NCBI GenBank assembly: GCA_947631115.1 | Contig: CANRKB010000007.1 | Span: 1 to 64,000, forward strand | Reading direction: 5' to 3' | DNA: 64,000 bases | Source of the DNA: an uncultured Clostridia bacterium | GTDB taxonomy: Bacteria; Bacillota; Clostridia; Oscillospirales; Ruminococcaceae | Shown: piece by piece, positions 11,126 to 12,635 of the stretch | How positions within the stretch are numbered: the first letter of the stretch is position 1 | Layout of the letters: each line of letters opens with the position of its first letter | Made by a program: the position numbers and the translations under genes | The notes under the pieces: generated by a model | Database searches by the model: none | Seen by the model: the letters and a program-made list of their open reading frames with translations, nothing else | What the model was told of the DNA's origin: nothing

Positions 11126-11252
11126 AGATTGTATAAAAAGTCAAGTTGCAGACTGTATAGAAAGCCCCGTATACCGGGAAGCGCCGCTGCAACTAGCCTT
11201 TGTGGCTGTTGCAGCGGCGCTGACGAAGTAGATGGGGCTTTATATACAATCT
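11126..11252. mobile_element. MITE-like repeat, copy A (127 bp)
   Basis: perfect 10-bp TIR AGATTGTATA / TATACAATCT; internal 14-bp hairpin 11180-11193/11208-11221; homologous to the reverse complement of 61264-61391. Confidence 0.75.
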
Positions 11253-11871
11253 GACTCCCGCTCAACTGAGCGGGAGCGTCATATATTCAATTTTAAATTC
11301 ATCCTGCTTGTAAGCTGAATATTACATCGGACCGTACCTCTCAATAAAATTCGTATCTATCACAAATTTTACCGCCCATGGGACTCAATCCTCTCGGTCT
11401 AATTTTCCTCTCCTAAACTTCAAAGCGCACATTCTAATCACCTAATTCTTCTTGGGGGTTATATGTAAACGCCTTTGAGCGACTTCGTCGCTGCAAGCGG
11501 TAGAAAATGTCTGCGGACTGCCTCACACGCCAAGGTATTTATCAACCGGGTAATGACCCTCACATCGACGAATCAACGCACCAACTTGTGCGGATAAACG
11601 CCCTCAAATTCGACCCAAGCGGTAGGCGGAACACGAATCCGCAGACCGTTCAAAAAATCCTTCACTCATTTCCATTGGACTCGCTTCCTTTCTGCTTCAA
11701 GCTGAATTTTTTCGGCTTTCATGCCTTCGGATAATTCCTCATCTCTCACCGATTACTTAGCTATATACCTATAGACCTTTCCTCGGGTTTAAATCAGATA
11801 CCCATCGGACTGAACCGCCTTTCTTGGTTTTCATTAAGGAAGATCCGCCGTCGCGGTCTGTCTTTCCTTGT
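11253..11871 (-). ncRNA. candidate large structured non-coding RNA (unassigned)
   Basis: no plausible CDS; many local stems (11509-11517/11638-11646; 11478-11492; 11577-11592; 11761-11774; 11836-11841/11864-11869; 11255-11276); strong minus promoter immediately upstream. Confidence 0.55.
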
Positions 11872-11877
11872 GATTAT

Positions 11878-11906
11878 ATGATAACATATTTTTTGTTAAA
11901 AGTCAA
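11878..11906 (-). promoter_or_regulatory. sigma-A promoter driving the minus-strand ncRNA candidate
   Basis: TTGACT-N17-TATCAT on minus strand, A/T-rich upstream. Confidence 0.65.
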
Positions 11907-12109
11907 TAGAAGTTTTTAATTTTTTTGTTGTGAATTTGTATATATTTTTAAAAATCAATTTGGGCAAACTAATGATAATTTCGTGTAATCCACGTCAAAA
12001 CGCTGTTTTTCATAAATTTCCTATTGACACGAAATAAAAAATAGTGTAAAATAAATAAGTCGGCGTGATTCATATATGAAAATACAGCGCCGAAAAAGGC
12101 GGCGGTAAT

Positions 12110-12427
12110 ATGGCTGAAAATAACGATGCATTTCTTGACGAAGAAGAGGGAATAATTGAACTTGAGGACGAAGAGGGAAATGTCACGAGATTTGAATTTG
12201 TAGATCGTGCCGAGTATAACGGAACGGTTTATTATGCGCTTATTCCCGACGACGCCGAAGACGAGGGCTCGGCTGAATTTGTCGTTCTGAAAGAACAGGA
12301 AATAAACGGCGACATAATGCTGGCGACTGTCGATGACGACGACGAATACAACGAGGTCGGAGAAATGTTTCTGAAAAGGTTTTCGGAACTGCCCGATCTC
12401 GAAGAACCCGAGGACGATGATCTTTAA
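12110..12427 (+). CDS. DUF1292-family acidic protein
   Basis: LEDEEGNVTRFEFVDRAEYNGTVYYALIPDDAED...FVVLKEQE. Confidence 0.75.
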   Translation: MAENNDAFLDEEEGIIELEDEEGNVTRFEFVDRAEYNGTVYYALIPDDAEDEGSAEFVVLKEQEINGDIMLATVDDDDEYNEVGEMFLKRFSELPDLEEPEDDDL

Positions 12428-12438
12428 TTTCGTTTACA

Positions 12439-12624
12439 TACTGCCTTGCAGCGCGAATGTGTGCTGTTATAATCCCAACACATTGTAAAAGGGATCTCGA
12501 CTCCGTCAGCGGATTGCAGACCTCCTGTTCCGAAAGGACAGTTGGCGGGAGCGTGAAACTGTCGGGCGACTTTACCCACCCTGCTATCTGCGGGTTTTAT
12601 ATTGCATCTTACGGCAAGGCGGTA
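12439..12624 (+). ncRNA. ssrS: probable 6S RNA
   Basis: 186 nt; closing stem TACTGCCTTGC/GCAAGGCGGTA; A/T-containing asymmetric central bubble; apical CTGTTCC-GAAA-GGACAG hairpin; followed by T-run and a terminator. Confidence 0.6.
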
Positions 12625-12635
12625 CTTTTTAAAAG

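Follow-up and report, generated by a model that had tools for sequence, protein, structure and literature searches.

To our knowledge, only a few large structured bacterial RNAs of unknown function have been described; we know of no mini-ORF arrays in OLE, ROOL or GOLLD, nor of any described class that would accommodate serial ribosome entry sites whose frames span one or a few codons. The staphylococcal RNAIII is a structured RNA of ~0.5-0.6 kb that also carries a small ORF. The OLE RNA of C. acetobutylicum is 577 nt long (PMC12286853). Minigenes such as lambda bar and mg2 of axe-txe combine a strong Shine-Dalgarno (SD) sequence with an AUG and a frame of 1-3 codons, and occur singly in phage or mRNA leaders, where they act in cis. 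Minigenes of two codons behind a strong SD lead to peptidyl-tRNA release and re-initiation, and their overexpression inhibits growth (PMC8708949).

We examined, on both strands, positions 11253-11906 of a 64,000-nucleotide stretch of DNA (the window) from an uncultured Clostridia bacterium of the Ruminococcaceae. On the sequence evidence, the minus strand of 11250-11880 is a genuine, structured stand-alone transcription unit with a putative transcript: a candidate structured RNA of ~620 nt, previously undescribed, that gut bacteria of a single order appear to have kept together with its own promoter. It resembles OLE, ROOL and GOLLD in size, stand-alone state and extensive conserved structure, and the likeness to these classes drawn in the original prediction holds for size and layout; it does not extend to family membership, for which there is no Rfam match even at permissive E-values. 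With minigenes the RNA shares the strong SD, the AUG and the very short frame; unlike them, it carries several start-stop modules in one structured stand-alone molecule conserved across genera. The likeness to RNAIII as a dual-function RNA lies in size and the presence of a small ORF; homology was not found, and the repeat of the new RNA is SD-like and G-rich whereas RNAIII has C-rich anti-SD loops. Finally, 6S RNA is encoded at the same locus, and the analogy that we propose with it is that of a mimic of an initiation site occupying the machinery; 6S RNA differs in being separate, recognisable by Rfam and active on RNA polymerase.

The transcription unit, its relatives and its neighbors

The sigma-70-type promoter that had been predicted on the minus strand (TTGACT-N17-TATCAT, 11906-11878) is present, includes an extended -10 element (TG), scores 10/12 and is kept in nearly all aligned homologues. 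Transcription is predicted to start just 5' of CAAGGAAAG, and the proposed transcript (11251-11872, minus strand, ~620 nt) takes its start from the -10 box and its 3' end from a conserved hairpin. The latter, the perfect 10-bp hairpin noted earlier at 11255-11276, is conserved among the homologues, as is the adjacent 3' motif AATTGAATA (11284-11292, minus strand). It is terminator-like, with a U-tract that is weak in the window copy, where it has no T-run and was not called as a terminator; the terminators that were called are located beyond the hairpin, at 11179-11165 and 11121-11092. Another conserved element, GCGTTTACATA, lies at 11462-11472 (minus strand). The promoter and 3' hairpin are thus conserved while the genes downstream vary (phosphofructokinase, SIR2-like, HAD-like and NAD(P)H-hydrate epimerase-like, neighbor names beyond those tested with Pfam being readings of the sequence), which marks the putative transcript as stand-alone. 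Between the 3' hairpin and the convergent phosphofructokinase gene we also observed a near-perfect long inverted repeat (11165-11237, ~70 nt in total), for which Rfam returned only chance matches to miRNA families.

Homologues are present both in the same genus and in the wider order. Using blastn, matches were recovered in 32 of 61 genomes, all of them from the window's genus (37 genomes including the window's own, with 31 of the 36 others matched), and in none of the 24 genomes of other families; the homologue alignment spans the promoter through the 3' hairpin. Two covariance models, which cover the core module only and yield rough E-values, detected the element in 45 of 396 genomes of the order, nearly always as one copy per genome, in families f1, f13 and f24, with doubtful matches in f17 and f20. 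A class-wide sample of 392 genomes gave six covariance-model matches, all in the same order, and none elsewhere in the class. Scanning for exact occurrences of the best-conserved 21-mer returned 45 contigs, at least three of them chance matches, with titles naming Oscillospiraceae, Ruminiclostridium, Ruminococcus, Clostridiales and uncultured Clostridia. Because the contig pattern demanded R-T-G at the start, our statements on start-codon conservation rest on the blastn and covariance-model matches. Set aside as doubtful were L051 and L066 (rbfA starts), L075, L097, L102, L110, L112 and the lipoprotein leaders L109 and L119. In these two, from family f20, the leader of a lipoprotein-like gene contains the module AAAGGAAGTGAGTCCAATGG and an ORF of ~25-30 codons that may be an unrelated leader ORF. 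The copies from family f13 (L100, L101, L104, L116) show a repeated ATGGGCATACCGATGGGTATGG hairpin 3' of the core ORF and adjoin an asparaginase-like or alcohol-dehydrogenase-like gene. An origin from mobile elements or phages was considered and rejected: the RNA is chromosomal, with no match in viral contigs or in phage or plasmid collections. The best explanation of these data is a new family of large structured RNAs inherited vertically within the order of the host.

A cmscan search against 4227 Rfam families matched no known family at its gathering score, and relaxing the threshold to E <= 10 added nothing but chance matches to eukaryotic and mycobacterial families, scoring far under their cut-offs. 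Diverse homologues of the element had no Rfam match either. The covariance models of OLE, ROOL, GOLLD, HEARO and raiA were unmatched at both thresholds. The original prediction correctly set the RNA apart from RNase P and tmRNA, both of which occur on other contigs: the genome's RNase P is of type A (268.6 bits, contig C25), with no match at the RNA locus, and its tmRNA lies on contig C1 (161 bits), with none found in the window by ARAGORN. Identity with 6S RNA is likewise rejected, as the latter is a separate locus (12435-12629). The motif was absent from the literature found in a search that left preprints and most subscription journals outside.

Upstream and divergent, throughout family f1, is a gene for a DUF1292 protein (Pfam; 12110-12427, plus strand, in the window), directly followed by the 6S RNA on the same strand. 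At 43.6 bits against an Rfam cut-off of 46.4 (E 1e-7 for that stretch) this 6S RNA had escaped the gathering-threshold scan. A 6S RNA is also close to the structured RNA in the distant members L098, L113 and L117; the shared locus could merely reflect old gene order. Conserved upstream elements, ATAATCATTAG..ACCAAA and AAAATATATACA (11930-12030, minus strand), lie between the promoter of the RNA and that of the divergent DUF1292 gene and are possible regulator sites or UP elements.

Covarying helices

Since the predicted fold of the window copy is barely better than that of shuffled sequences (z = -1.9), the structural claim rests on comparison and not on energy. Among 23 genus homologues, 94% pairing is kept over the 25 pairs of five helices, and the covariation score reaches 0.342, versus 0.210 +/- 0.014 for shuffled controls and at most 0.099 for slid partners; as the homologues are related, these numbers do not count independent events. 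Compensatory base changes in long-range and local stems accordingly exceed both controls, and together with the homologues they support the earlier proposal of a large structured stand-alone RNA outside Rfam.

The long-range stem P2 (GTCTGCGGA/TCCGCAGAC; 11509-11646, minus strand) encloses hairpins P3 and P4. It was foreseen as a 9-bp stem joining 11509-11517 to 11638-11646, and eight of its pairs are 99.5% paired in the 23 genus homologues, with an end pair that covaries as GC, AU and GU. P3 (CGCAC..GTGCG; 11577-11592, minus strand) covaries strongly together with its base, five of seven pairs having changed on both sides, and P4 (GGGT..ACCC; 11548-11559, minus strand) recurs in homologues in GGG/CCC, GGC/GCC, GGT/ACC and AGT/ACT versions. 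Both had been picked out from the single sequence; a further hairpin picked out in the same way, AGCGAC..GTCGCT at 11478-11492, is missing from most homologues.

Start-stop modules and the core ORF

The unit had been described as gene-free, with no credible ORF on either strand. Neither statement is supported: the minus strand contains tiny ORFs preceded by SD sequences and kept as start-stop modules, and these predicted ribosome-entry modules and their frames organise the unit and share in its conservation. Across the alignment a module of the form GAAAGGA-N4/5-(G)UCC-R-AUG is repeated, both halves of which are complementary to the 3' tail of 16S rRNA, GGAUCACCUCCUUUCU (GAAAGGA to UCCUUUC and UCC to GGA), while its R can pair with the preceding U of that tail. 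This 16S end is matched exactly in complete or near-complete relatives, the assembly of the window's MAG being without its own 16S tail. The predicted pairing energy is -14 to -18 kcal/mol for the modules of ORF1, the core, ORF5 and ORF6, and -12.5 for that of ORF4, against a median of -10.6 kcal/mol for 51 genes of the window, each taken at the best of its possible starts.

All modules lie on the minus strand. Module 1 (11794-11824; -18.0 kcal/mol) consists of GAAAGGCGGTTCAGTCCG followed by ATG GGT ATC TGA, with the ATG at 11805, and would encode the mini-ORF MGI*; it is lost in some close relatives (L005-L008), and other branches keep MGC*, MES*, MGH* or MN*. The core module GAAAGGAAGCGAGTCCAATG (11673-11692) is the most conserved stretch and unites an SD, the 5' arm of a stem and the start codon. 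It opens the core ORF MEMSEGFFERSADSCSAYRLGRI (11604-11675, ATG at 11675), which has 23 codons in the window and 16-23 in every homologue whose contig is long enough; the start is GTG in L023-L025, L027 and L114. ORF4, MCALKFRRGKLDRED* (11385-11432, ATG at 11432), follows AGGTGATT. Module 5, GAGAGGATTGAGTCCC with its ATG at 11379, opens ORF5, MGGKICDRYEFY* (11341-11396 in all), and overlies a hairpin that covaries in relatives. In module 6 (11322-11342), seen by SD pairing and in homologues, GAGAGGTACGGTCCG precedes ATG TAA (ATG at 11327), a stop directly after the start; homologues have M*, MN*, MC*, MY*, MES* or MHG*. The extra modules are numerous chiefly in the window's genus, and distant members retain two or three.

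Stem P1 (11633-11684) pairs GCGAGTCC (11684-11677) with GGATTCGT (11640-11633) inside the core ORF. Its 5' arm, GYGAGUCC, sits between the SD and the AUG, and its 3' arms lie 30-45 nt downstream within the core ORF; a partner is present in 54 of 54 distinct homologues, with a C-G to U-A exchange between forms that pair GCGAG with CUCGY and GUGAG with CUCAC (L100, L105, L116). As the partner was in each case the best-scoring one, individual p-values for P1 are modest (median 0.035). Depending on the lineage, the GGCUCGU arm conserved within the core ORF falls in any of the three reading frames, which points to a constraint on the RNA.

The minigene pattern of an SD, an AUG, 1-3 sense codons and a stop is found here at the sequence level. 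In frame, 83 of 115 non-core modules (72%) end within three codons, compared with 29 and 23 in frames +1 and +2 (25% and 20%) and with 14% of AUGs lacking an SD. When distinct 15-mers are collapsed the counts are 67/88 in frame versus 40/176 (Fisher 1e-16, which is no strict probability because the sequences are related). The stops do not derive from one frozen sequence, as the frames include M*, MN*, MC*, MY*, MES*, MHG*, MGI*, MGC*, MVC*, MA*, MAR*, MET* and others. In the window copy alone a generic count of SD-ATG pairs exceeds dinucleotide shuffles weakly (p = 0.11), and hence the claim rests on comparison among homologues and on the test for in-frame stops; the SDs are predicted to be no more accessible than other purine stretches (p = 0.22). 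A role as a sponge mimicking a motif of ordinary gene starts was also considered and rejected: with no mismatch the module pattern occurs at the RNA locus only, and with up to two mismatches in three other places.

One alternative, to which we accord a limited probability, is that the transcript serves as a polycistronic mRNA in which the core ORF, ORF4 and ORF5 encode small functional peptides, with the shortest frames as couplers and the structure regulating translation. The narrow length range of the core ORF, the ATG/GTG exchange at its start and the preservation of frame by most indels (L020, L026) are in line with this, as are BLOSUM scores of the aligned frames above column-shuffled nulls (p = 0.0025 and 0.0065 for the core ORF in two clades, 0.005 for ORF4 and 0.006 for ORF5). 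However, changes at third positions are not clearly in excess, so that a peptide function is possible at most; the use of the GGCUCGU arm in all three frames implies that no peptide is conserved in the C-terminal half of the core ORF; with 1-3 codons, most of the remaining frames are too short for a product, and Pfam gave no match.

The chance is similarly small that the molecule acts in trans as a structured RNA, resembling RNAIII or serving as a protein sponge, with GGA..UCC modules that bind a protein or C-rich targets and AUGs that are incidental or serve only to protect the RNA. Repeated short GGA-N-UCC elements, strong structure, an own promoter and 3' hairpin and the absence of a protein gene would all suit such an RNA, but conserved start codons and early in-frame stops are unexpected of mere binding sites, and both conserved module halves match the 16S tail. 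It is most improbable that the locus is what remains of a protein gene, serves as the leader of one or arose as an artefact of assembly. Lack of annotation is the only point in favor of this reading, which is already contradicted by the hairpin that closely follows the conserved 3' motif in the aligned genus homologues, by the differing downstream genes and by the presence of the element in many independent assemblies.

A possible engagement of initiating ribosomes

Comparison shows an RNA with a predicted promoter of its own, a covarying structure, a core entry module with an ORF of 16-23 codons, and extra SD-AUG modules at which translation would quickly stop. Tiny frames, often of 1-3 codons, behind putative ribosome-binding sites suggest a ribosome-engaging RNA rather than an mRNA for a normal protein. 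We tentatively propose, as the best single reading although one somewhat less likely than not, that this is a new class of RNA that engages 30S subunits through mini-ORF initiation. The modules would recruit 30S subunits through an extended duplex with the 16S 3' tail. Initiation there would give way directly to termination, after one to three codons or at the end of the core ORF, or to peptidyl-tRNA drop-off and re-initiation; the RNA might thereby hold or sense initiating ribosomes. As P1 pairs the SD-AUG region with the ORF's own codons, each initiating ribosome would open it, so that folding and ribosome loading would be coupled. Since the effects of single minigenes are known, an RNA that carries several and is made from a strong promoter could conceivably hold or gauge initiating ribosomes. 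It is possible, if doubtful, that the RNA occupies or gauges 30S subunits by means of its extended-Shine-Dalgarno start-stop array as a translation-side counterpart to the adjoining 6S RNA. The adjacency to 6S RNA, which occupies RNA polymerase, makes this analogy attractive and proves nothing.

The building blocks, namely SD sites, minigenes and structured RNA, are each known already. Should the RNA indeed bind initiating ribosomes, translation capacity would be under the direct control of an RNA, and a "non-coding" RNA can, on this example, be defined by translation starts that lie beyond what gene finders report.
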